A DNA stretch of 33,436 bases from Cellulophaga sp. (GTDB taxonomy: Bacteria; Bacteroidota; Bacteroidia; Flavobacteriales; Flavobacteriaceae): contig JANQTG010000207.1 in assembly GCA_030731855.1 (NCBI GenBank), positions 1 to 33,436 on the forward strand. The letters are read 5' to 3'. A model generated the notes under the pieces. That model did no database searches and was not told where the DNA came from. It worked only from the letters and a program-made list of their open reading frames with translations. How positions within the stretch are numbered: position 1 is the first letter of the stretch; each line of letters opens with the position of its first letter. Positions 16,783 through 33,299 of this stretch are shown here, in pieces. The translations under genes and the position numbers were made by a program.

Positions 16783-16798
16783 TGTTTTTAATGCAATA

Positions 16799-16822
16799 AC
16801 CTGCCCGTCCGGCAGGCGGGTT
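16799..16822. repeat. GC-rich palindrome (dispersed intergenic repeat type)
   Basis: ACCTGCCCGTCCGGCAGG followed by CGGGTT, 17 nt after the serine hydrolase stop. CCTGCC and GGCAGG pair around CGTCC. An alternative nested pairing uses CCCG and CGGG. It stands out sharply from the AT-rich surroundings, and similar GC palindromes are scattered between genes in Flavobacteriaceae. It has no T-run, so it is not a classic terminator. Confidence 0.6.
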
Positions 16823-17062
16823 CATCAATATGAAAATGTAATAATGTAAAAGGTACCAATTATTTAATATAATAATTCTTGCTTTAAAGTGCTGATTCTA
16901 AGTCATGCAGGTTTATTGATTTGAAGATGCACCAATTAATCAATTCAACAATACTTAAATTAAAGATTTTTCCGTTTGACAGCAAGGCGACATACTAAAT
17001 AAAAATTAGATAGATTTAGTTGTCTACTGTACTATTTAACTTTTAAACTATCGGAGTAAAAT

Positions 17063-17099
17063 ACTAACTTACTATCCAACTAATTCACTAACTCACTAT
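17063..17099 (+). repeat. Short direct repeat ACTAACTyACTAT
   Basis: Two 13-mers, ACTAACTTACTAT and ACTAACTCACTAT, start 24 nt apart, and a partial third ACTAACTT begins at 17124. The rest of 16823-17110 is AT-rich without a plausible gene. Confidence 0.4.
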
Positions 17100-17110
17100 T
17101 TACTGCGCCA

Positions 17111-17174
17111 CACCACAAGTTTTACTAACTTCACAACAATAGTTTCGAGAACACGAATTAGGAAGTTACTTTTA
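17111..17174 (+). promoter_or_regulatory. Upstream block of RNA-like unit A
   Basis: Contains CACCACAA (17111), then TTCACAACAATAGTTT (17130-17145), then 21 nt later TACTTTTA (17167-17174), a one-mismatch form of TAnnTTTG. The same three elements occur with identical spacings (19, 37 and 33 nt between block starts) at 18129-18192. That is strong evidence of a preserved promoter or control region. In this copy CGAGAACAC (17146-17154) is a perfect complement of GTGTTCTCG at 17217-17225; copy B lacks that arm. Confidence 0.5.
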
Positions 17175-17179
17175 TACTA

Positions 17180-17263
17180 TACTTAATATAGAATTAGTTT
17201 TTTTCATTTTCATATAGTGTTCTCGTTAAAAGAGCTTTGCCCACAAGACAAAGCTCTTTTTTT
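17180..17263 (+). ncRNA. Candidate small RNA A with intrinsic terminator
   Basis: Inferred transcript of about 85 nt. It contains a 27-nt block (17200-17226) identical to 18218-18244, including CATTTTCATATAGTGTTCTC, followed by a perfect 12-bp terminator stem AAAAGAGCTTTG / CAAAGCTCTTTT (17228-17239 with 17249-17260) and a T-run to 17263. There is no open reading frame of note on this strand. The paired unit B has a different stem sequence but the same architecture. The 5' end is an estimate from the -7-like element. Confidence 0.55.
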
Positions 17264-17461
17264 ATTAGTGAAACTCGAGTTTTGAAAAATAGCGAAGCTT
17301 TGTATACAAAATTGTTCGTTGTACCTACATCACCGAAAGACTAATCTTGTAATCATTGAGCCTGGCCCTAGTGCTGCCGAATCTAGAATTTTATACCCCG
17401 ACACTCTCCATTGAAGTTTTTTTAATACTTAAAACTAAAATTACTAAATACTTAATCTAAA
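17264..17461. other. Gene-free spacer
   Basis: About 200 nt between RNA-like unit A and the stop of the DEAD-box gene. I see no start-anchored frame of useful length, no strong hairpin and no promoter match. Confidence 0.5.
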
Positions 17462-18076
17462 TTATTCTAACTCAAAAATTTCAGCATTTGCCATGAACGA
17501 CTCCTGCATACGCTCCATTCTATTATCAAACTGAGTAGAAAAAACTACATATTGGCATTTTTCTAAACTTTCGGGCGTTCTTAAAAGATCAGAAAAAGCG
17601 CTGGCCTTAATTAAGAATTCGGAGTCTTCAACCATAAAAAGTTTTAATTTGCCCAGATTAATACTATTTAAATAAAAAATCTTATTCAACCTTTTTGGCG
17701 TAGCAATAACAACATCTACACCATCATAAATATCAGCACGTTGATCTTCTATATTTTGTTCATCATAGGCACAATATATACGAATAGACATTCTTTTTGT
17801 AAATTTTTCAAATGCCGATGCTAAAGCTAAGGCAGCTTGTTTGTCTTTTACAAAAATTAAAGCTCTAGGTGCGTCTTCAAAGGCTTTACATTCTAATTTT
17901 TGGAGCGTCGCAATGATTAAAGCTGTTGTTTTTCCTGAATTGTCTGGTGCAATACCAAATATACTAGCACCTCCTTTTATTTTTGACAACACCCCTTTCT
18001 GGAAATCGGTATACCCAGTAATGTGATGTTCCGCAAGGGCTTCTTTTAATTCAGACTGTAATTTTTTATAAGACAT
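17462..18076 (-). CDS. Single-domain, degenerate DEAD-box helicase-like protein
   Basis: The 204-residue protein matches only the first RecA domain of DEAD-box RNA helicases; the second domain (motifs IV-VI) is absent and no frame continues downstream. The Q motif region is GYTDFQKGVL (Gln26), Walker A is APDNSGKT (43-50) with GKT kept, and motif Ib is ATPKRL (125-130). Motif II is eroded to VEDS (149-152) instead of DEAD, and motif III reads FST rather than SAT. ATP might bind, but unwinding is unlikely. The sequence is otherwise clean, so it looks like a maintained non-helicase derivative rather than a fresh pseudogene. Two similar RNA-like units flank it. Confidence 0.82.
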   Translation of the reverse strand: MSYKKLQSELKEALAEHHITGYTDFQKGVLSKIKGGASIFGIAPDNSGKTTALIIATLQKLECKAFEDAPRALIFVKDKQAALALASAFEKFTKRMSIRIYCAYDEQNIEDQRADIYDGVDVVIATPKRLNKIFYLNSINLGKLKLFMVEDSEFLIKASAFSDLLRTPESLEKCQYVVFSTQFDNRMERMQESFMANAEIFELE

Positions 18077-18128
18077 AAATTTTTTAATTCAGTTTTTTAA
18101 GGGTGATAAATAACATTAAATGAACTTT

Positions 18129-18192
18129 CACCACAACTTTTAAGCAGTTCACAACAATAGTTTTAATTTACAAAGCTTCAGTTCTATCTTTG
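18129..18192 (+). promoter_or_regulatory. Upstream block of RNA-like unit B
   Basis: CACCACAA (18129-18136), TTCACAACAATAGTTT (18148-18163) and a perfect TAnnTTTG match TATCTTTG (18185-18192), at the same spacings as unit A. The first two boxes share CACAA and may be a repeated operator, with the second overlapping the expected -33 region. On the opposite strand this same region is the leader of the DEAD-box gene starting at 18076. Confidence 0.55.
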
Positions 18193-18197
18193 ATATG

Positions 18198-18278
18198 TAA
18201 TAAAAAACGACATAAAATTTTTCATTTTCATATAGTGTTCTCGTAAAAGACTTAATCTTAATTGATTAGGTCTTTTTT
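18198..18278 (+). ncRNA. Candidate small RNA B with intrinsic terminator
   Basis: Inferred transcript of about 80 nt from the TATCTTTG element. It carries the 27-nt block at 18218-18244, identical to unit A, then a 13-bp stem AAAAGACTTAATC / GATTAGGTCTTTT (one U-G wobble) with loop TTAATT and a T-run to 18278. Stem sequences differ from unit A by paired changes, so structure is conserved while sequence is not. No protein-coding frame is evident on this strand. Confidence 0.6.
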
Positions 18279-18283
18279 AATTA

Positions 18284-18336
18284 AGCCCCACCCGTAATGG
18301 CGAAAATGAGATTACCACCTCCCCGAAGGAGAGGTA
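18284..18336 (-). repeat. Dispersed two-hairpin intergenic element, copy 2 (inverted)
   Basis: Read on the minus strand it begins ACCTCTCCTTCGGGGAGG and ends ATTACGGGTGGGGCT, matching copy 1 at 1924-1978 in both termini. The first stem is retained with a compensating G-U pair and the second stem is GTAAT/ATTAC. It begins 6 nt after the terminator of RNA-like unit B. Confidence 0.7.
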
Positions 18337-18382
18337 GAAATAACTAATTTTCAGTAAAAATTTCAAAAACACACTAAACTTG

Positions 18383-19225
18383 TTAAGGAATCCACTTATT
18401 TTTTCCAAAATCGGGCTTTCGCTTTTCTAAAAAGGCATTTCTACCTTCTTTAGCTTCCTCAGTCATGTAAGCTAAACGTGTAGCTTCTCCTGCAAATACC
18501 TGTTGCCCCACCATGCCATCATCCGTTAAGTTCATAGCGAACTTTAACATTTTAATAGAGGTTGGCGATTTTTCTAAAATCTCTTGTGCCCATTGGTATG
18601 CAGTATCTTCTAATTCTTCATGTGGAATTACGGCATTAACCATTCCCATTTCAAAAGCTTCTTGCGCCGAATAATTACGTCCTAAAAAGAAAATTTCTCT
18701 CGCCTTTTTCTGTCCCACCATTTTTGCTAAGTAAGCCGAACCATAGCCACCATCAAAACTAGTTACATCAGCATCGGTTTGTTTAAAAATAGCGTGCTCT
18801 TTGCTTGCTAAAGTCAAATCGCAAACTACATGCAAACTATGTCCTCCACCAACGGCCCATCCTGGAACAACGGCTATGACAGCTTTAGGCATAAACCGAA
18901 TTAAACGCTGTACTTCTAAAATATTTAAGCGATGCATGCCATCTTCACCAACATACCCTTGGTGTCCCCTAGCCTTTTGGTCGCCACCACTACAAAATGA
19001 AAATACACCATCTTTAGTCGAAGGTCCTTCACCAGAAAGTAAAACCACGCCTATTGACGTATCTTCTTGGGCATCATAAAAAGCTTGGTATAATTCGCTC
19101 GTAGTTTTAGGTCTAAAGGCGTTTCGAATATTAGGTCTGTTAAAAGCAATCCGCGCAACGCCATTGCATTTTTTATAGGTGATATCTTCGTACTCTTTTA
19201 CTGTTTTCCAAGCTATTTTTGTCAT
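18383..19225 (-). CDS. menB: 1,4-dihydroxy-2-naphthoyl-CoA synthase (MenB)
   Basis: A 280-residue crotonase-fold enzyme of menaquinone synthesis that cyclises o-succinylbenzoyl-CoA to 1,4-dihydroxy-2-naphthoyl-CoA in the cytoplasm. It has the FCSGGDQKARG oxyanion-hole segment (78-88), GWAVGGGHSLH (122-132) and QTDADVTSFDGGYGSAYL (149-166). Asp151 takes the place of the bicarbonate-binding Gly of E. coli MenB (Gly156), as in the Mycobacterium enzyme, marking the bicarbonate-independent type II form. The C-terminal FGKNKWIP is also typical. Full length. No other men genes are next to it; the upstream neighbour is a glycosyltransferase 100 nt away across a palindrome. Confidence 0.96.
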   Translation of the reverse strand: MTKIAWKTVKEYEDITYKKCNGVARIAFNRPNIRNAFRPKTTSELYQAFYDAQEDTSIGVVLLSGEGPSTKDGVFSFCSGGDQKARGHQGYVGEDGMHRLNILEVQRLIRFMPKAVIAVVPGWAVGGGHSLHVVCDLTLASKEHAIFKQTDADVTSFDGGYGSAYLAKMVGQKKAREIFFLGRNYSAQEAFEMGMVNAVIPHEELEDTAYQWAQEILEKSPTSIKMLKFAMNLTDDGMVGQQVFAGEATRLAYMTEEAKEGRNAFLEKRKPDFGKNKWIP

Positions 19226-24851: not shown

Positions 24852-24953
24852 TTAAGAACGACTAAGTTCGTTGATATTAAAATTTCCTAAAATTTCATTC
24901 AAATTATTGATGAAACTTACATAAGACGAGTTTTCTTGATTCTTGTTTGCCAT
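24852..24953 (-). CDS. Tiny peptide 2 (33 residues), paralogue of its neighbour
   Basis: The sequence begins MANKNQENSSYVSFINNLNE and ends INELSRS. It shares the pattern Y[LV]SF[LI]N[DN]LNEIL, then NEL, with the 32-residue peptide encoded 31 nt upstream on the same strand. Chance resemblance over twelve aligned positions between adjacent short frames is unlikely, so both are probably real. There is no signal peptide, Cys or membrane span; the core could form an amphipathic helix. It lies between the exopolysaccharide-type operon and the bidirectional rpoD terminator. Function unknown: a small regulator, an adaptor or a peptide precursor are all possible. Confidence 0.6.
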   Translation of the reverse strand: MANKNQENSSYVSFINNLNEILGNFNINELSRS

Positions 24954-24984: not shown

Positions 24985-25083
24985 TTAAAAAAAATCTAAT
25001 TCAACTAATTCATTTAAGCTTAAAATTTCATTTAGGTCATTTAAGAAGGATAAATATTCTTCTCCGTAGGTATCGTATAACAT
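24985..25083 (-). CDS. Tiny peptide 1 (32 residues), paralogue of its neighbour
   Basis: The sequence begins MLYDTYGEEYLSFLNDLNEI and ends VELDFF. It is acidic and helix-prone, with the shared core EYLSFLNDLNEIL matching SYVSFINNLNEIL in the next frame. It starts 118 nt after the stop of the beta-barrel gene on the same strand, so it could be the tail of that operon or an independent transcript; no TAnnTTTG match is visible in the gap. No known family recognised. Confidence 0.6.
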   Translation of the reverse strand: MLYDTYGEEYLSFLNDLNEILSLNELVELDFF

Positions 25084-25201
25084 ATATAAAATAGATTTGG
25101 TTACTTTGGTTTACGTGTTAAATTTATATTAATCTTAACTTTAAAAAAATATTATGTGGTGTAGCACTTATTTTTTGTTGTGAAATCTGATTTTATTGAA
25201 G

Positions 25202-26425
25202 CTAAAATTTAAATTGATAGTTTAAACCCAAGGTACCGGCTATAAAAAAGTCTCCAGGCCTAAAACTTAGTTCTTGCCTTGTTACCCCTAAAGTTAAACC
25301 GAGTCCGTTTTTGTTATTATTTAATAAAAATTGATATTCTATAAGTATGTTTTGCGATTCTAAAAACAAGAGACTTTCCGCCAATAATACATTGTCGGCT
25401 ATAAACTGTTTTAACTCCGAAGTATACCCAAAACTGGCATTTACACCAATAAAATTGTATTTGTCTTTTAGGTATTTACGTGCCAATATATTTCCAGAAA
25501 TATTTAAGGTATTATTTTCTGAGGGCGTTACATAAGGCCTTAAAGAAAAGAAGTAATTACCTGCATAAAGTCCGTAAGAACCCGTGAATATAAAAACCCT
25601 ACTTGTTCCAAAATTAAGATACCGAACGCCTAAGGAAGCTTCCATGGCATTCGGTAAATTGGTATACAGCTCTGCTCCTGCTCTATGCGCTGGAAAAATA
25701 GGACTATCAGAATACCCATAATTAAGATAAGCATATACCTTTTTTGAAAATTTAGGATACGCATCAACCTCTAGCTGCATGCCATTAATATTAAAACGAT
25801 TGCTATAATTTAAACGAGGTATTATAGTTCCGTATTTTGTTTTTGTACTGTATGCGATGCTCGCATAGGTCATGGGATCAAAAACTACATCAAAAACATC
25901 CACTGACGAGGTAAAGAGAATACTATTTTTTTGAACATCACCAGCCTCAGCATCTAAAAAAATAACTTCTTCTACGGTTTTATCGATCGTTAATGCTAAT
26001 TGGGCTTTTTCTTCTAGGGCTAATAAATCTTCATCATTTTCTAAATATTTTAATGCCTTATTGGCTAAACCTAAGGCTAAATAGTACTCCTCAGCGTACA
26101 TTTCATTGTTGATTGCCGCCACCCAAACTTCTTTTAGCTTTTTTTCTTTAGAAATTATTTTATTAAAATGATTTCGAGCTTCAAGATATTCACCATCCCA
26201 ACTATATGTTTTTGCTAGTAAATTACGAACATCTGCATACTCTGGGTATTTGCTTAAAATTTGTTTTAAAGTGTCACGTGCGGTAGTTCTATCGCCAGAA
26301 AATGCTAAATCGCGTGCGGCGAAAAAAGAAGCATCCGGATTGCCCGAATACTCTATAGTTTGAGCTCGCGTTGCACATAACACACATCCAAAACAAACCA
26401 ATAAAAATAGTTTTTTTAGGTACAT
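25202..26425 (-). CDS. TPR plus YaiO-like outer-membrane beta-barrel protein
   Basis: A 407-residue outer-membrane protein. The signal peptide runs to about residue 21 (CATRAQ). About three TPR-like helical repeats follow (residues 28-140, ATARD-type pairs such as YPEYADVRNLLAKTYSWDGEY), then a beta-barrel from about residue 160 made of alternating aromatic strands and ending LGLNYQFKF, with the terminal Phe typical of barrel proteins. TPR followed by a barrel is the layout of exopolysaccharide exporters such as PgaA, and the barrel resembles the YaiO family. It is the last large gene of the operon, 1 nt after the TPR-membrane protein, and is predicted to carry the glycan across the outer membrane. 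Confidence 0.85.
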   Translation of the reverse strand: MYLKKLFLLVCFGCVLCATRAQTIEYSGNPDASFFAARDLAFSGDRTTARDTLKQILSKYPEYADVRNLLAKTYSWDGEYLEARNHFNKIISKEKKLKEVWVAAINNEMYAEEYYLALGLANKALKYLENDEDLLALEEKAQLALTIDKTVEEVIFLDAEAGDVQKNSILFTSSVDVFDVVFDPMTYASIAYSTKTKYGTIIPRLNYSNRFNINGMQLEVDAYPKFSKKVYAYLNYGYSDSPIFPAHRAGAELYTNLPNAMEASLGVRYLNFGTSRVFIFTGSYGLYAGNYFFSLRPYVTPSENNTLNISGNILARKYLKDKYNFIGVNASFGYTSELKQFIADNVLLAESLLFLESQNILIEYQFLLNNNKNGLGLTLGVTRQELSFRPGDFFIAGTLGLNYQFKF

Positions 26426-26426
26426 T

Positions 26427-27572
26427 TTATTTTTTTGAAGCTAAAAAAGCTTCAATTTTTAGATTGTTACTAAACGTATTTGTTGTAACTCCTTTTTTGT
26501 TTAAAGCTTCATAAGCTCTATTTACTTTATGGTTTACTTCGTCGCTAGCAATTGAATTTTTAATTATAACATCAATAAGCTTTACGACTTGTTCGTTATT
26601 GTCTGACCAGTAATACACATCTAATAAAGCACTATAAATATCGTCGTAGCTGCTATTTTTTAGTAAACACTCTTCAAAAACGCTAATAGCTTCATCGTAA
26701 TTACCTTTCCAAGCATTAATTCTACCTTTTAAAATTCTTGCATCAATATGGTTAGGTACTTCAGACAAAATATAGCGTAAAAGCAAAAGCGCTTTTTCCG
26801 GTTCATTTTCAAAAGCAAATTGCCGGGCCGTAATAAAAGCATAATCATGATTTTTACCGTTAAACTGACTGTTGATCCAGACAATTTCTTCTTCGCTAAA
26901 CTTTTCTTTTATTTTTTCTTCGTTACCGAGTTTATTAATTTCTTCTGTATCTGAAAAAGTATGTAGTACATTAAATACTAAATATTTAGTTTTATTTTGA
27001 TTAATTGGTTTTCCTTCAACCAAAAGTGTTGCAACAAAAACAGTAAAAAATATAATGGTTAATGGGAACATCTTATTAATGTGATGGTAAAACTTTTTAG
27101 TGAATTTATAGCCGTAAAAAAAAAGCAGTGTTACAGGTATTAACAACAAAATAATAGTGAAGGAAACGCTACCAGAATTCGATAGTATCCTAAAAATATA
27201 AGATACCGTATTACTCTCTGTATTTACTCCTAAAGGTATTAAAGTAGTTGTATAGTGTGTCACTAATAACGCCTCTATGCCTAGTAACAACAACAATAAA
27301 CCATAAATAATTTTAAACCCTAAACTTGGCTTAAATCTTTCTAAAAAGTGATAAGGAGCAACCAATACTAAGCCAATTAAGGAGCTAAAGCCTATATGGT
27401 TCACAAGAGCCAAAACAAAGCTGATACTAAAAATACCATCAATAACACCTTTTAGGTATAAGTTGGCGTATTGATAGGTAACTATCAACAACGAACTAAA
27501 GAAAAATGCTATTATTAATCTTGTATACTCTCGTAGGGATGTGGATATTTTTTCAACTTTAATTGTTTCCAT
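26427..27572 (-). CDS. Membrane protein with five spans and C-terminal TPR domain
   Basis: A 381-residue inner-membrane protein. Five hydrophobic segments (about residues 17-38, 46-72, 87-108, 131-157 and 170-188) are followed by a soluble, probably periplasmic part with TPR-like repeats (about residues 238-350, e.g. HIDARILKGRINAWKGNYDEA). The membrane part resembles the N-terminal region of LtaS/MdoB-type sulfatase-fold transferases, but no sulfatase domain follows; that similarity is by eye only. The ATG at 27572 is 1 nt after the GT2 stop; a longer frame from 27665 would overlap that gene heavily. It probably links the synthase to the TPR/barrel exporter encoded next. Confidence 0.75.
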   Translation of the reverse strand: METIKVEKISTSLREYTRLIIAFFFSSLLIVTYQYANLYLKGVIDGIFSISFVLALVNHIGFSSLIGLVLVAPYHFLERFKPSLGFKIIYGLLLLLLGIEALLVTHYTTTLIPLGVNTESNTVSYIFRILSNSGSVSFTIILLLIPVTLLFFYGYKFTKKFYHHINKMFPLTIIFFTVFVATLLVEGKPINQNKTKYLVFNVLHTFSDTEEINKLGNEEKIKEKFSEEEIVWINSQFNGKNHDYAFITARQFAFENEPEKALLLLRYILSEVPNHIDARILKGRINAWKGNYDEAISVFEECLLKNSSYDDIYSALLDVYYWSDNNEQVVKLIDVIIKNSIASDEVNHKVNRAYEALNKKGVTTNTFSNNLKIEAFLASKK

Positions 27573-27573
27573 T

Positions 27574-29004
27574 TTAAGTTGCTTTTGCAAATCCTTTTCG
27601 GGTAATTGTACCCCAGCCAGATTGTATTTTAAATAATTTTTTATAATTGCCACGAACCGCTGCAAATACTACAATAGGATGAAAAATAAAGGGTTCTAAA
27701 ATGGCACAAGCCATCAAAATCAGAATATCTTTAGTGCGGTTATACTCGTTATAAGAATAGACTTCCCAAAGGATGGCGTAAAAGCTAAACATGATAGAAA
27801 AAATGTAAATAAGTGCCGTTATGGCAATAAAAAAAGGAACATTTAAAATACCAATATAATAGAAAAGTATGATGGTAAAAAAACCAAAAAATTCTAATAA
27901 TGGCGCCAACCATTCATAAAAAAACCAATACGGATAACTGATTAATCCTAAGCGACCATATTTTCTGTTGAAGAACATGTTTTTGTGGGTGTATAAGGTT
28001 TCTAAGTTTCCTCTAGACCACCTGTCGCGTTGGTTTACTAATATTTTTACACTCTCTGGTACTTCTGTCCAACAAAGCGGATCAGGTATATATTCAATGG
28101 TATGCGGAAGTTCGTTTTCGATCATATATTTACGCATCCGGAAAACAATTTCCATATCTTCCCCTACGGTATGCGTATCATAGCCACCACAGGCAACGGC
28201 AATTTCTCGATCAAAAAAACCAAAAGCACCTGAAATAATTAAAAGACCATCTAGCCTACCAAAAGCCATTCTTCCTAATAAAAATGAGCGCGTATATTCT
28301 AACATTTGAAATTTAGCCAACCAATTTTTAGGCAAACGTATTTCTTCTAAAGCACCACCATTAATAATGCATGAATTAGCCACTCTAATAACACCACCAA
28401 CAGCAATTACTCTTTTTTCGCTTCGCTGAAAAAATGCTTTTACCACATGCAATAAAGCATCAGGCAATAACAAACAATCTACATCGATACACCCTACATA
28501 CGGGTTTTTAGATAAATACATACCCGTGTTCAGGGCGTCAGATTTTCCACCATTATCTTTATCGATTACAGTAAGCTTAGAAAATGACTCTTGTTTTGAT
28601 TTATAAATACCTCTAATTGGTTTAGATTTCCAATCCGGATCTATTTTTTGATTAATTTTCACTAAATCATAGGCATCAATCATTTTTTGTAACGTGTCGT
28701 CTTTACTACCATCATTGACTACCATTACTTCATAATTCACATATTTTAAAGATAAAAGTGAACGTACATTTTCTACGATATTCATACCTTCATTATACGC
28801 AGGCGCAACAATAGTTAATCCTGGCGCTAATGGAGAAGCCATAACTTTAGACAAATCGCCAAAACTATTTTTATTTTTGTAATGGATCGAATTTCGACTC
28901 GATAAATACCCCATTACCACAAATAGTGAAAACAAAATAAGTGAAAACGTAAAAAAAACTACGTTTATATATTCTAACAATACGTTAAATACGCCGCTAT
29001 CCAT
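27574..29004 (-). CDS. Processive family 2 glycosyltransferase (PgaC/cellulose-synthase-like)
   Basis: A 476-residue inner-membrane glycan synthase. An N-terminal span (about 12-32) precedes a GT-A domain: VAPAYNEG (66-73), NDGS with D98, metal-binding DVD (174-176), the catalytic GED (281-283) and the processivity motif QRDRW (325-329), the QxxRW hallmark of synthases that polymerise and translocate. Three or four C-terminal spans follow (about 353-440). All catalytic residues are intact, so activity is likely. Its start overlaps the HEAT-repeat gene by 8 nt. The sugar donor is unknown; similarity is closest to the PgaC/IcaA type. No PilZ domain is visible, so c-di-GMP control is not indicated. 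Confidence 0.92.
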   Translation of the reverse strand: MDSGVFNVLLEYINVVFFTFSLILFSLFVVMGYLSSRNSIHYKNKNSFGDLSKVMASPLAPGLTIVAPAYNEGMNIVENVRSLLSLKYVNYEVMVVNDGSKDDTLQKMIDAYDLVKINQKIDPDWKSKPIRGIYKSKQESFSKLTVIDKDNGGKSDALNTGMYLSKNPYVGCIDVDCLLLPDALLHVVKAFFQRSEKRVIAVGGVIRVANSCIINGGALEEIRLPKNWLAKFQMLEYTRSFLLGRMAFGRLDGLLIISGAFGFFDREIAVACGGYDTHTVGEDMEIVFRMRKYMIENELPHTIEYIPDPLCWTEVPESVKILVNQRDRWSRGNLETLYTHKNMFFNRKYGRLGLISYPYWFFYEWLAPLLEFFGFFTIILFYYIGILNVPFFIAITALIYIFSIMFSFYAILWEVYSYNEYNRTKDILILMACAILEPFIFHPIVVFAAVRGNYKKLFKIQSGWGTITRKGFAKAT

Positions 29005-31153
29005 TTAGTTTGTTTTCTAGTTTAGAAGGAAAATGCAATAAGTGGTGAAAAAAACTATGTTCTTCTTTTGTGAGTCCGTTTTCGGCTTCTAAAACATTTT
29101 CTTTTCCATTGGTTTCAAAATGATGAATGGAGGACAAATCCTCAGAAAAATCCACATCAAAATCAATATCAAAAACGCTGAAGGGTTTCGTTTCTAAAGA
29201 AGATACTTCTTCATCTTCCAAAACAAAACAAAGATCCAAACTTTTTAATTCTTTATTTGCTGAGAGAGATTCCTCCGTAATATTTTCATCCCTATCATAT
29301 TTTCTATAATTATCTGCTTGTTCCTGCTCGTAATCGATAGTTTGCTCTTTTAAAGTCTGTACTCTTTTTTTGTCATCGAATGCTTGTTCTGGAGCCTCTT
29401 TTTCTTGAATCTTTTCTAGTAGCTTAGCCTTTATAAGAACAGCTTTTTTTCGAATCTCGAAATTATGATGGTTATGCAGCGTATTTAGAAAAGAAAGCTC
29501 TTTACTATTACCTACTTCTAAAATTTCATCGAGAAGTAATAATTTACAATAGTCATCACTTACCTCAAAAAGAGATTTAAATATACTCTGGTGATCTGAA
29601 CTAAGTGCTGTACTTATACTTTCATGGTCAATTGTTTTTGACAATAAATCATTATCGTTTAAACCAGTTTGTGTTTGTTTAATATCATGATAAGCCGAAA
29701 AATCTAATGCACGATAGTCTTTTAAACCAAGATCAGGTTCTTTTTTTATGTCTAAAAATTCAGAAACTTTGGTGTGTTCTTTTTTAAAAAACTCAATTTC
29801 AGTATAATATGATGAATTTATAAATTCATACTTAGGTTTTTCTTCGGTTTTATCAGTCAAATTACTTCTAATTTCATGACTTTCTAAAATATTGTGCAGT
29901 GCTTTATTTTTTTGATACTCATCAAAATTTTCTTCGCTATCCTTGAAGGTATCTTTCATGTTATAATCAGGTGATAAATCAGGGGTACTATCTTGATGAT
30001 CAGATATAGTAGCTTCTACAACCAAATCTTCATCATTTATCTCATCTACCATATATAATTCCTTTGATGCTTCTAGGTTTATTTCTTCTAAGCCTTCCGT
30101 AGGCATAACATAACCTGGCTTAATAGTATTTATGGCGCTTAAAGCTTTACTCTTTACCAAAAAATTAATATCAACTTTATCCACCTCTTCTAAAAATAAG
30201 ATATCGTCTTCATTTTCAAAACTTGCTATGGCATCTAAAATAACTAACTTGATAGCATTACTACTTTTCCAAAAAACGGATTTTAAGGTACTCCTAGAGG
30301 CTTTGAAATGGAATTTTTTAATACAACTTATGGCTTCTTGTTTGATATGATCGTTTTTATGACGTACTAGCGCTATGATTGCTTGTTCTGTATCGTTTTG
30401 GTCATAGTGTTTTATTAGGCGCAATGCAAAAAGCACCACATGCTTATTTTTTGAGGTTAACCAATTGCTAAACCTAGGCGGCTGAAAATTATCGAAACCC
30501 GCCAATACTTCAATTATTTTTAATTGTTGCCATTGTGATATCTGATATGTTGTAGTATCTAAAAAATAAGAAATACCCTCTGGTGTAAGGGTAACTATTG
30601 ATATTTCTGCTTGTTTTCTAATGACTGATCTCTTATCATTAATGAACCTACTTATAAAAACATAGGCTTCTAAAACCTGCATTTGGGTAAGTTCAAACAT
30701 GCCCTGAGAAATTCGTTGCCAGCGCCAACTTTTTAACTTAAGAAAAGATTCTAAATCTAGATTTAAGTCTTTGTATAATTGAAAAAGTCTTTTTCGAGTA
30801 TCTCCAGAAACATCTTTTTTGAGGTCTAGTAGAATGTCTGCCAAAATGGCTCTATTTTTTTTGTCTTTTATTAACTCTCTAATCGCTATTTTTTGATTTA
30901 TATAGCTACTTTTTTCATCTTTTGTGCCCTCTTTTTCATGATAAAATAGAAACTCGCTCACCATAGGAGCTAATTGCTTTTTTAAAGCAGTTCTACTTAC
31001 CATAATTTTTTGATGCCTATTTCTAAAATAAAAAACAAAGAAAAAATAAACAGTAGCTAATATGGTGAACAGCAGGGTTAAGTCCCAAAGAATACTAGTA
31101 TGTATTTTTGGAGCGGTAATCAAAAAGTAGGTATTTAAAATTTGGGGGTTCAA
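28997..31153 (-). CDS. Membrane-anchored HEAT-repeat protein with acidic linker
   Basis: A 718-residue protein. One N-terminal span (about 22-44) is followed by a basic segment and about five HEAT-type helical repeats (about residues 140-355). Then comes a long acidic, low-complexity linker (about 360-515), a second short HEAT block (about 525-595, with FEIRKKAVLIKAKLL) and an acidic tail rich in Asp/Phe (FDIDFDVDFSEDL). It carries no enzymatic motif. HEAT arrays bind proteins, and the basic segment after the span predicts a cytoplasmic location, so it may scaffold the GT2 or receive the phosphorelay signal. It overlaps the GT2 gene by 8 nt and follows the response regulator by 9 nt. Confidence 0.8.
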   Translation of the reverse strand: MNPQILNTYFLITAPKIHTSILWDLTLLFTILATVYFFFVFYFRNRHQKIMVSRTALKKQLAPMVSEFLFYHEKEGTKDEKSSYINQKIAIRELIKDKKNRAILADILLDLKKDVSGDTRKRLFQLYKDLNLDLESFLKLKSWRWQRISQGMFELTQMQVLEAYVFISRFINDKRSVIRKQAEISIVTLTPEGISYFLDTTTYQISQWQQLKIIEVLAGFDNFQPPRFSNWLTSKNKHVVLFALRLIKHYDQNDTEQAIIALVRHKNDHIKQEAISCIKKFHFKASRSTLKSVFWKSSNAIKLVILDAIASFENEDDILFLEEVDKVDINFLVKSKALSAINTIKPGYVMPTEGLEEINLEASKELYMVDEINDEDLVVEATISDHQDSTPDLSPDYNMKDTFKDSEENFDEYQKNKALHNILESHEIRSNLTDKTEEKPKYEFINSSYYTEIEFFKKEHTKVSEFLDIKKEPDLGLKDYRALDFSAYHDIKQTQTGLNDNDLLSKTIDHESISTALSSDHQSIFKSLFEVSDDYCKLLLLDEILEVGNSKELSFLNTLHNHHNFEIRKKAVLIKAKLLEKIQEKEAPEQAFDDKKRVQTLKEQTIDYEQEQADNYRKYDRDENITEESLSANKELKSLDLCFVLEDEEVSSLETKPFSVFDIDFDVDFSEDLSSIHHFETNGKENVLEAENGLTKEEHSFFHHLLHFPSKLENKLNG

Positions 31154-31162
31154 ATTAACTTT

Positions 31163-31537
31163 TTAGTTTTGATGGGCTAACTCTTTTTGCAAACGCAATA
31201 TAAGTTCTGCCGGACTTATGGGTTTAGACAAAAATTCGTTAGCACCTAATTTAAATGCACTGAGCACGTTTTCTTCATTCCCAGCAGATGACAATACTAT
31301 AATGGGTATTTTTAATTTTAATTGATTCCGTACATAATCCGTTAGTTCTAAACCTGAAAAATAAGGCATCATAATATCTGTTATGATAACATCTGGCCTA
31401 TTTTCTTCAAGATATTCTTTTACTTTTTTTCCATCGGAACAAATAGTAACCTGATACCCATCTTTTTTAAGACGATAATCTAATAATGACGCCAATAAAG
31501 CATCATCCTCTGCTAATAGTAATTTTTTACTATTCAT
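31163..31537 (-). CDS. Single-domain response regulator (CheY-like)
   Basis: A 124-residue receiver domain with no output domain. Acidic pocket E10-D11-D12, phosphoacceptor D54 (IITDIMMP), signalling Ser83 (VLSSAG) and Lys105 (LSKPIS) are all present, so phosphorylation should occur. It probably acts by protein contact rather than DNA binding. It lies 7 nt after the hybrid kinase gene and 9 nt before the HEAT-repeat gene. The obvious partner upstream is the HPt domain of the kinase, and the obvious target downstream is the HEAT protein or synthase, though this is inference from gene order. Confidence 0.95.
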   Translation of the reverse strand: MNSKKLLLAEDDALLASLLDYRLKKDGYQVTICSDGKKVKEYLEENRPDVIITDIMMPYFSGLELTDYVRNQLKLKIPIIVLSSAGNEENVLSAFKLGANEFLSKPISPAELILRLQKELAHQN

Positions 31538-31544
31538 TTACTAT

Positions 31545-33299
31545 TTATTTTTTACTGTTTTTTAGTTCAAGTAAGCTTTCTTCAATAGCATTTTCTATTC
31601 GGGGATATTCGCTAATAAAACAATCGTATAAAAAATTTAGATATTTAAAATCACGATCTTCATCACAGGTTTTATGCATTTGTTCCACTATTCTAAAGAG
31701 TCCATTTGAATGCAGCATTCTTAAACTCGCTTTTATTTTGTGGGTACTAAAGCGGATGCCTTCTATATCTAAATTTTTTAGGTCTAACTTAGTTTTTCCA
31801 ATAAATTCGACCATATTATTTTTAAAAAGTTGAATTAACTCTTCTAAAATACTAGCGTCTTGTAAACACTCGTCATATAAAGGCATCAAGTTAACATCAG
31901 GGGCTTCTTCTTGGTTTATTTTTGAAATAATAGGATGGCTCATTGTCGATTTATTCATAGGATCATCGGTTATAGCTGTTTTTATTTTATGTAGTAATTC
32001 GTCTGCTTTAAATGGTTTTAAAACATAATCGTTAATACCACTTTTTTTGCATAAATCTTCGTCTTTAACTGAAAAATCTGCTGTTAAAGCAATAATTGGT
32101 ACAGAACCTATTTTAAGATCTTTATTTTGCCTTATCATTTTCGCAATTACAAAACCAGTAGTTTCTGGTAATTGTAAATCCATCAATATTAGATCTATTT
32201 TATTCGTTTGTAAAACCCACAAACCTTCTTTAACATCATCCGTAATAAAAGGCTTACAACCCCAACTTTCAAGTCTGTTTTTAATTAGTTTTTGATTCAT
32301 GGTATTATCTTCAAAAACTAAAATAGAAATATCTTTTAGCTGCGTCTCTGTCTCCTTATTCTGGGTTTTAATTACATTAGTTTCTGCAATTGAATTTGTG
32401 TTGATTTTATAGGGGATAGAAAAATTAAAGGTAGTACCAATACCTACTTTACTTGTTACTTTAATACTACCGTCTAAAGAATCAATTAAATGTTTTACAA
32501 TACCTAAACCTAATCCAGTACCGCCATATTTTTTTGAAATATTAGGATCGGCTTGCTGATAATAATCGAAAATGGTACCGATACTATTTTCGGCAATACC
32601 AATTCCTGTATCTTTTAATATAAAATTTAGTGTAAGCGTATCGTTTTTTAGATTTTTAGCTTCAATATGAAGTGCTATGGTACCTTTATCAACAAATTTA
32701 ATGGCGTTACCTAATAAATTCAATAGTATTTGCGAAAGTTTTGAAGGATCTCCTACAAGGCTAAAAGGAGTATTATCTGAAATAGAATAGGTAAAACTAA
32801 CATCCTCATTCACTATTAGCGTTTTACATAAATAACACACATCTTTTACCAAATTATGAATATTAAAATCTACATTTTCTACGTAAACATGGCCAGACGT
32901 TATTTTTGAATACTCTAAAAGCTCGTTAATAATTTTTAACAAGGTGTTTGAAGCTGTTTTAATCGCATTTACATTCGAAAACTGATCTTCTGACAATGCA
33001 TCTTCCAATAACAAATCGGTAAAACCAATAATTCCGTTTAATGGCGTTCTAATTTCATGGCTAACTCTTGCAATTACAAGGGCTTCTGTATCTTTTATAG
33101 TTATAGATTTTTTATCGAAATCAGTAGATAAAAGCTTACTTTCAGCATCAAGTGTTGTTTTGTTTTCTAGATTTTTCTTAAAATTTAGAAATGATTTTTT
33201 TATTCGATTCGCTTCTTCTGATGTAAGCTGGTCGAAAGAAAAACTATTTAGTTTTAATTCTAGTTCAGAAATGTGGGAAAGTAAGTCGTTCGATTTCAA
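31545..33299 (-). CDS. Soluble hybrid histidine kinase: HisKA-HATPase-REC-HPt
   Basis: A 584-residue phosphorelay kinase. Residues 1-70 are a predicted coiled coil without a recognisable sensor domain or membrane span. HisKA carries the phosphoacceptor H81 (SHEIRTPLNGI). HATPase_c has the N box (N198, LLGNAIK), G1 DTGIGI (230-235) and G2 GGTGLGLG (259-266). The receiver has D374 (LMDLQLP) and K428 (VLKPF). The C-terminal HPt domain has H520 (STHKIKAS). The full His-Asp-His relay is therefore in one chain, with the single-domain regulator as the likely final acceptor. It is the first gene of the exopolysaccharide-type operon. How it senses input is not evident. Confidence 0.95.
   Translation of the reverse strand: MKSNDLLSHISELELKLNSFSFDQLTSEEANRIKKSFLNFKKNLENKTTLDAESKLLSTDFDKKSITIKDTEALVIARVSHEIRTPLNGIIGFTDLLLEDALSEDQFSNVNAIKTASNTLLKIINELLEYSKITSGHVYVENVDFNIHNLVKDVCYLCKTLIVNEDVSFTYSISDNTPFSLVGDPSKLSQILLNLLGNAIKFVDKGTIALHIEAKNLKNDTLTLNFILKDTGIGIAENSIGTIFDYYQQADPNISKKYGGTGLGLGIVKHLIDSLDGSIKVTSKVGIGTTFNFSIPYKINTNSIAETNVIKTQNKETETQLKDISILVFEDNTMNQKLIKNRLESWGCKPFITDDVKEGLWVLQTNKIDLILMDLQLPETTGFVIAKMIRQNKDLKIGSVPIIALTADFSVKDEDLCKKSGINDYVLKPFKADELLHKIKTAITDDPMNKSTMSHPIISKINQEEAPDVNLMPLYDECLQDASILEELIQLFKNNMVEFIGKTKLDLKNLDIEGIRFSTHKIKASLRMLHSNGLFRIVEQMHKTCDEDRDFKYLNFLYDCFISEYPRIENAIEESLLELKNSKK

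Follow-up and report, generated by a model that had tools for sequence, protein, structure and literature searches.

A multicopy small RNA family of marine flavobacteria and its probable control by a LytTR-type two-component system

The window analyzed here is a 33,436-nucleotide stretch of DNA from Cellulophaga sp. (GenBank assembly GCA_030731855.1, contig JANQTG010000207.1, positions 1 to 33,436 of the forward strand), in which two similar units, at 17111-17263 and 18129-18278, flank a DEAD-box-like gene. An earlier inspection of the letters alone (the original prediction) had taken these units for a duplicated small-RNA-like element with compensatory terminators. We propose, with a probability of roughly three in four, that both are copies of a multicopy, trans-acting small RNA (sRNA) in the regulon of an autoregulated LytTR-type two-component system. 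Judging by comparative sequence evidence, the multicopy sRNA family is real and widespread, and its members share a promoter of fixed geometry that recurs at the genes of a LytTR response regulator and a histidine kinase.

Results

Anatomy of the sRNA units

A repeat search of the window returned two pairs of similar segments, 17111-17145/18129-18163 (35 nt, 86% identity) and 17200-17230/18218-18248 (31 nt, 97% identity), each offset by 1018. The shared blocks CACCACAA and TTCACAACAATAGTTT and the identical 27-nt block lie exactly where the original prediction had placed them, both pairs at this same offset. The TAnnTTTG-like element that it had also listed is clean in copy 2 (TATCTTTG, 18185-18192) and weaker in copy 1, where TACTTTTA at 17167-17174 retains a TAnnTT match.

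Copy 1, on the forward strand, comprises a putative activator site at 17112-17138 (boxes ACCACA, 17112-17117, and ACAACA, 17133-17138, 21 bp apart), the weak -7 element 34 bp past the second box, and a predicted sRNA of about 85 nt at 17179-17263, its start inferred and its end set by the terminator T-run. Within this RNA lie the conserved, predicted single-stranded block TTTTTCATTTTCATATAGTGTTCTCGT (17200-17226) and an intrinsic terminator (17229-17263) recognized by folding and stem covariation. Copy 2, in the same orientation, has a putative activator site at 18130-18156 (boxes ACCACA, 18130-18135, and ACAACA, 18151-18156), its -7 element at 18185-18192, a predicted sRNA of about 82 nt at 18197-18278, again from an inferred start, and a block at 18218-18244 whose 27 nt are the same as those of copy 1 throughout. 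The terminator stems differ in sequence between the copies and both pair, as had been claimed. A covariance model of the family matches copy 1 at 17179-17261 (80 bits; fold z-score -3.6) and copy 2 at 18197-18278 (79 bits; fold z-score -3.65), each copy also being in the training set. The sequence CGAGAACAC in the promoter spacer of copy 1 (17146-17154) is the reverse complement of GTGTTCTCG in the block; spacer sequence of this type, which lies upstream of the inferred start, is also found in the corresponding copy of genome G013 and nearly so in G010.

For promoter anatomy we took 84 copies from 19 genomes and sought an anchor box, [AG]CA[AT]C[AT], 70-92 bp upstream of the 19-nt core, imposing no other constraint; one copy offered two candidate anchors, of which the nearer was used. 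A second box (A-C-A/C-A-C-A) lies exactly 21 bp further upstream, a third, weaker box is often present 42 bp upstream, and TAnnTT stands at +34 from the box in 84/84 copies. The distance from promoter to block varies while the geometry of the promoter stays invariant in all 84 of these Cellulophaga-group copies, and we interpret the box pair together with TAnnTT as a promoter that carries an activator site. The original prediction had described a promoter plus a structured transcript under selection. Its promoter and its compensatory terminators hold up; CACCACAA and TTCACAACAATAGTTT have to be reassigned as upstream activator boxes outside the predicted transcript, whose conserved part is the 27-nt block plus the terminator.

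The predicted transcript has a median length of about 82 nt (n=208, from an inferred start) and runs from a variable A/T-rich 5' part through the block and, in most copies, TAAAA to a hairpin with a T-run. The conserved block directly precedes the terminator and does not lie in the 5' portion of the RNA. In folds of six copies the terminator is the main stable structure, and the consensus fold contains no structure besides it. The proposed covariance check came out in favor of a conserved stem: among 50 aligned homologues, 10/14 pairs carry two-sided changes and 96.5% of cells are paired, with a covariation score of 0.517 against 0.290 in shuffles and 0/500 shuffles reaching the observed score. 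These 50 were retained from 67 sequences chosen for diversity out of 208; the other 17 were left out by hand, several being shortened by the end rule and others unusually long or irregular.

Distribution of the family

In the 3.8-Mb genome to which the window belongs, a search for the 24-nt block allowing up to three mismatches found it three times, each time exactly, with 0 matches to a reversed control pattern; contig C178 holds the third copy. When two mismatches were tolerated, a search for the 19-nt core succeeded in 21/40 genomes: all 18 of the genus, the own one included, 1/7 from the remaining genera of the family and 2/15 from outside the family. The two matches from other families (G033, G034) look like chance, since neither promoter nor terminator is present. 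All 18 Cellulophaga genomes carry 3-7 core copies each. In genome G007 (L070:7850-8750), five sRNA copies stand in tandem about 225 bp apart, with core variants ending TCA or TTA.

An exact core scan of public genomes returned at least 120 stretches. The genera among the matches listed include Cellulophaga, Maribacter, Allomuricauda/Flagellimonas, Arenibacter, Zobellia, Robiginitalea, Eudoraea, Muriicola, Croceitalea and Euzebyella, along with others. Among these same matches, the promoter described above stands at 125/133 exact core sites, and 5 more sites are cut off by locus ends. The remaining 3 are L134, which has the terminator and an off-pattern promoter; L191, from Bacilli, which looks like chance; and L122, considered with the target searches below. 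With a cutoff of E 1e-3, the covariance model detected the RNA in 63/299 genomes of the family; 49 have E <1e-8, and the other 14 (E 2.5e-6 to 8e-4) may be terminators by chance. A class-wide sample gave matches in 7/197 genomes besides the own one, all at 1e-7 or weaker. Outside the own genome these are mostly plain terminators, L232 (1e-7) being only loosely block-like, and we rejected them as family members.

Comparison with Rfam, including the 6S-Flavo and Flavo-1 models that the original prediction had singled out, yielded 0 matches above gathering score, both in the window and at 9 other sRNA loci drawn from several genera; with permissive settings, 16790-18400 returned 3 matches at E 1.1-3.5, all far under the gathering scores. 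Among the leading search results in the open-licence literature we found no earlier description of the RNA family or of its control circuit, and the family is apparently undescribed so far.

Candidate regulon

A promoter matrix of 94 columns from 209 sRNA promoters was scanned over 2.0 Mb, half of the genome, of Cellulophaga G014, leaving out the sRNA locus beside the menB-like gene discussed below. It found 10 sites of at least 4 bits, against a mean of 0.33 for three column-permuted matrices; in the first 1.2 Mb, 5 sites reached at least 14 bits, and none did so in 10 Markov simulations and with 6 rearranged matrices. The top six sites lie at a gene for a small secreted or outer-membrane-type protein, 320 nt upstream of an ABC transporter ATPase, at a variant sRNA, at a pair of tiny open reading frames (ORFs), at a TPR/HisKA_2/HATPase kinase and at a REC-LytTR response regulator. 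The other four score 5.2-11.0 bits, one of them at a kinase operon that is found in the window too.

Searched with the LytTR regulator of G014, every one of the 18 Cellulophaga genomes gave a single match at E 1e-60 or better; in the 17 genomes besides G014 its identity to the query is 90-97%, and boxes are visible upstream of the gene in 18/18 orthologues. The orthologue of G006 (G006:C13:9718-10407, L365) contains one in-frame TAG. An sRNA-type promoter lies within 1.2 kb upstream of the kinase match at 12/17 Cellulophaga kinase loci, the 17 excluding the split kinase of G016. In two loci it directly precedes the kinase (19.5 bits in G014, 23.1 bits in the own genome), in eight a variant RNA that carries the 5' motif CCCAAATCTTA, and in two an sRNA. 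Variant sRNAs share a motif, (C)CCAAATC(TTA), close to their 5' ends, and the leaders of the regulator and of the tiny ORFs contain a similar form; the places concerned are L255:16883, the upstream regions of L370-L377, and the L291 and window 25100 leaders.

The sites of LytTR regulators elsewhere are direct repeats of 9 bp that usually stand 12 bp apart and lie a short way upstream of the -35 element, for example ACCACTTAC-12 bp-ACCACTTAC; the direct-repeat criterion in use is 9 bp with an 11-13 bp spacer, about 4-11 bp upstream of -35, and these regulators can autoregulate, which is a usual sign of a cognate regulator (PMC6193735). The boxes described here match the 21-bp start-to-start period and have a similar ACCAC/ACAAC start, with a poorly defined -33 element. 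Because of this period and start, the sites at the regulator gene and the linkage to the kinase, the LytTR protein is the best candidate activator. We also compared 15 strong sRNA-positive with 15 sRNA-negative genomes, picked by handle before the regulator search. The regulator is 90-95% identical in 15/15 positives, nine of which have an additional match at 48-72% identity; the best match among the negatives reaches 57-76% in 13/15, and 2/15 have none at E 1e-70.

The tiny ORFs are encoded in the window as well. An sRNA-type promoter at 25119-25181 on the reverse strand (boxes at 25181 and 25160, TAAATTTA at 25126) stands upstream of ORF 1 (24985-25083, 32 aa, MLYDTYGEEYLSFLNDLNEILSLNELVELDFF) and ORF 2 (24852-24953, 33 aa, MANKNQENSSYVSFINNLNEILGNFNINELSRS) on the same strand, scoring 32.7 bits here and 20.4 bits in G014. 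ORF 1 shows about 81% identity to its counterparts in Maribacter L118 and Eudoraea L190, and ORF 2 is 58% identical in the former and 48% in the latter. The two are related to each other, neither has a Pfam match, and a sigma-70 gene lies nearby in the window. Eudoraea L190 has recognizable boxes too (11.2 bits); the Maribacter L118 locus ends before the box position.

Also on the reverse strand of the window, 25202-33299 holds an operon-like run encoding a hybrid histidine kinase, a receiver protein, a HEAT-repeat protein, a GT2 glycosyltransferase, a TPR protein and a YaiO-type barrel, which looks like an exopolysaccharide cluster. Near its start is a weak sRNA-type promoter (33375, 16.7 bits; 7.4 bits at a similar G014 gene), and the run may belong to the regulon.

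Neighboring genes

We surveyed the neighbors of 215 copies at 161 loci, with L122 and L191 left out; the counts are lower bounds (many loci end at 8 kb), and some places were counted twice (for example L063/L188 and L039/L086). A menB-like gene lies convergent, its 3' side within 1.2 kb, at 76 copies in 53/161 loci. The same arrangement is seen in the window, where an enoyl-CoA hydratase family gene (18383-19225, reverse strand; Pfam ECH_1), which we call menB-like, converges on copy 2 as a conserved landmark. A histidine kinase gene (TPR/HisKA_2) lies downstream in the same direction at 34 copies in 33/161 loci, at a distance of 298-571 nt in 32/34. Both positions recur across genera and therefore look ancestral. 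In Allomuricauda-type genomes (L077, L087, L089, L101, L146 and others), a second box promoter about 160 nt past the core leads into the kinase gene.

The gene between the two copies (17462-18076, reverse strand) encodes a DEAD-like single-RecA-domain protein of 204 aa (Pfam DEAD, 1.9e-16). The original prediction had called it a degenerate remnant, perhaps forming one unit with the RNAs. Neither part of this description is supported. The protein is full length (199-204 aa aligned) beside sRNA copies in 18/18 Cellulophaga genomes; across 31 aligned rows its Walker A motif ends GKT, as in the window protein, or in one case GKS; and its motif II is altered in a conserved manner (VEDSE in the window, mostly (V/I)(E/D)DAE elsewhere). 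Relatives of about 200 aa occur in 39/120 genomes of the family, spread over many Flavobacteriaceae genera. The RNA flanks only 2/30 DEAD-like loci read, and the gene lies within 1.2 kb of 40 copies in 21/161 sRNA loci, all of them Cellulophaga but one Arenibacter. By these comparisons it is a separate conserved gene, a neighbor and not part of the RNA unit.

Discussion

Proposed circuit

We propose that the TPR/HisKA_2 kinase activates the LytTR response regulator, and that the activated regulator would bind the boxes and turn on its own genes together with the sRNAs. More tentatively, the unstructured block UUUUUCAUUUUCAUAUAGUGUUCUCG might pair with mRNA start regions (complement containing ...ACACUAUAUGAAAAUG...) and block their translation, with the sRNA copies perhaps acting additively. 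A wider proposal, to which we give a little less than even odds, is that marine flavobacteria possess a self-contained, clade-specific circuit in which an autoregulated LytTR/HisKA_2 system has redundant start-codon-blocking sRNAs and the 32-33 aa microprotein pair as its main conserved outputs. The microproteins are possibly feedback modulators or signals of the LytTR/HisKA_2 system.

Several observations weigh against placing the sRNAs under this system as trans-acting regulators. On the side of their control, the regulator's binding to the boxes and its partnership with this kinase are putative. The regulator's own site is low-scoring (3.1-27.6 bits, against a median of 59 for sRNA promoters), boxes being present nonetheless, and no sRNA-type promoter site was found in the 1.2 kb upstream at 5/17 Cellulophaga kinase loci scanned. 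The co-occurrence of regulator and sRNA is confounded by clade: the sRNA-positive genomes look like close relatives and appear to form one clade, so that the co-occurrence is suggestive and not proof.

On the side of their action, no target was found in Cellulophaga. Over 1024 start regions of G014, pairing of the block exceeded that of every one of 20 shuffled blocks by a small margin at weak duplex energies (-8 to -11) and fell inside the range of these shuffles at -12 to -16. Antisense matches of 18 nt (up to three mismatches, 18 genomes) numbered, among the matches listed, about 224 once the sRNA copies had been taken off, against 218 for a reversed control. The most promising candidate, a lipoprotein start in G014, was rejected as a target for want of conservation; the site differs in the own genome and in the other readable starts (about half of the loci). 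Perfect 9-mer, 10-mer and 11-mer matches numbered 19, 3 and 1, against 11, 4 and 1 for the reversed control. A 21-nt antisense search of 3.3 Mb with up to five mismatches left 17 matches after removal of sRNA copies, against 19 in the control, and those nearest to the pattern were additional sRNA copies or L122. For the leaders of the tiny ORFs, the regulator, rpoD, the menB-like gene and the DEAD gene, the block gave no clearly better pairing than its shuffles did.

Pairing with translation starts is nevertheless plausible, if weakly supported. The complement of the block, CGAGAACACTATATGAAAATG, includes ATGAAAATG, which resembles a start codon. Four sRNA copies are present in the genome of Flavobacterium sp. 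ASW18X, together with a single core site that lacks the promoter (L122); this site lies antisense to the beginning of a 128-aa ORF whose N-terminus resembles a signal peptide. The predicted duplex has 22 contiguous pairs, one of them G-U, at -32.2 kcal/mol, whereas 200 shuffled blocks averaged -12.6 and never reached that energy; with a few chance 19-mer matches expected in such a collection, the site is suggestive only. The L122 protein had no match in the 18 Cellulophaga genomes in a search run without a positive control.

Alternative explanations

The paucity of targets could also mean that the sRNA is real and titrates a protein, like a 6S- or CsrB-like sponge, with the invariant block serving as a protein-binding site and no mRNA pairing taking place. 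Such a role would fit both the absence of convincing mRNA targets in Cellulophaga and a block that is invariant at almost every position, beyond the needs of a short seed. However, each RNA offers a single unstructured site, with no conserved hairpin besides the terminator, and one sRNA-positive genome has the 22-pair antisense start-codon site; we regard titration as unlikely. We would give similarly low odds to activation by another regulator, for instance a second LytTR paralogue, in which case the boxes at the regulator and kinase genes would signify a shared regulon and not direct control. Related proteins are many, given the 40-76 candidate places per Cellulophaga genome in the first regulator search, and 9/15 sRNA-positive genomes have a second match at 48-72% identity. 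Yet the identified LytTR protein is the only one whose identity stays at or above 90% throughout the 15 sRNA-positive genomes tested, and autoregulation is usual for a cognate LytTR regulator (PMC6193735).

The unit envisaged by the original prediction, a tandem duplication of the regulatory region of the DEAD-box gene with RNA and protein working together, now seems very improbable. The gene does adjoin sRNA copies, or stand between two of them, in Cellulophaga, in Arenibacter (L116, L181) and in another genus (G089), but 140/161 sRNA loci are without a DEAD gene within 1.2 kb (some loci ending sooner), and the core is absent from 28/30 DEAD loci read. We give least credence of all to a chance or mobile repeat with no regulatory RNA. 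Tandem copies and several copies per genome might be expected of a repeat, whereas the compensatory stem changes, the divergent 5' parts and the positions that copies keep in different genera, next to the menB-like and the kinase gene (no search aimed at mobile elements was made), argue for an RNA.

Significance and comparison with known systems

We prefer to see the two units as members of a multicopy sRNA family probably driven by the LytTR-type system. Should the wider circuit be real, the Bacteroidota would gain their first two-component-driven multicopy sRNA family, as far as the literature searched shows. Flavobacteria are important degraders of algal polysaccharides, and little is known of their post-transcriptional control. 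The analysis provides an easily recognized sRNA family of one large clade with its covariance model, together with a candidate transcription factor, a candidate sensor kinase and a list of candidate co-regulated genes, so that the control of a clade-wide sRNA system becomes directly testable in cultivable marine strains.

Comparable arrangements exist in other phyla. The csRNAs of Streptococcus are several short, related sRNAs per genome whose promoters share a site for the response regulator CiaR. The family described here likewise has several short, related sRNAs whose promoters carry a common putative regulator site, but CiaR is of the OmpR type, whereas the candidates here are a LytTR regulator and a TPR/HisKA_2 kinase, in another phylum and with other sequences. 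The Qrr RNAs of Vibrio are redundant sRNAs that form the output of a two-component relay and need sigma-54 and Hfq. Redundancy and a proposed two-component output are shared with Qrr; unlike Qrr, the present sRNAs have a TAnnTTTG-type promoter and no Rfam match. In Staphylococcus aureus, the LytTR response regulator AgrA drives a regulatory RNA, RNAIII, as well as its own operon, RNAIII being one long structured RNA. The candidate LytTR regulator here would similarly serve an RNA and its own genes, through many short copies in place of one long RNA. Traits of the csRNA, Qrr and LhrC kind are found in the 3-7 near-identical copies per Cellulophaga genome and in the 21-bp box pair with 34-bp spacing in 84/84 copies.

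Closer relatives also offer parallels. Rfp18 of Flavobacterium psychrophilum is a conserved flavobacterial sRNA with predicted mRNA targets, described as strongly structured and as pairing through its third stem-loop (PMC9723704). The present family shares with it the conservation among flavobacteria; we rejected an identity with Rfp18 because that RNA is described with another architecture, whereas here there are several copies with one stable hairpin, the terminator. The FopS/GibS RNAs of Bacteroides thetaiotaomicron form a multicopy sRNA family that binds near start codons and represses translation, FopS being described with its seed in the 5' part and with canonical promoters, possibly with an unknown regulator; the same source names five Cia-dependent sRNAs and the Qrr family (PMC11697453). 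Like FopS/GibS, the sRNAs described here are multicopy and belong to the same phylum, which makes FopS the closest parallel that we found there. They are set apart from FopS, going by its description and not by sequence, in that their conserved block stands just before the terminator.

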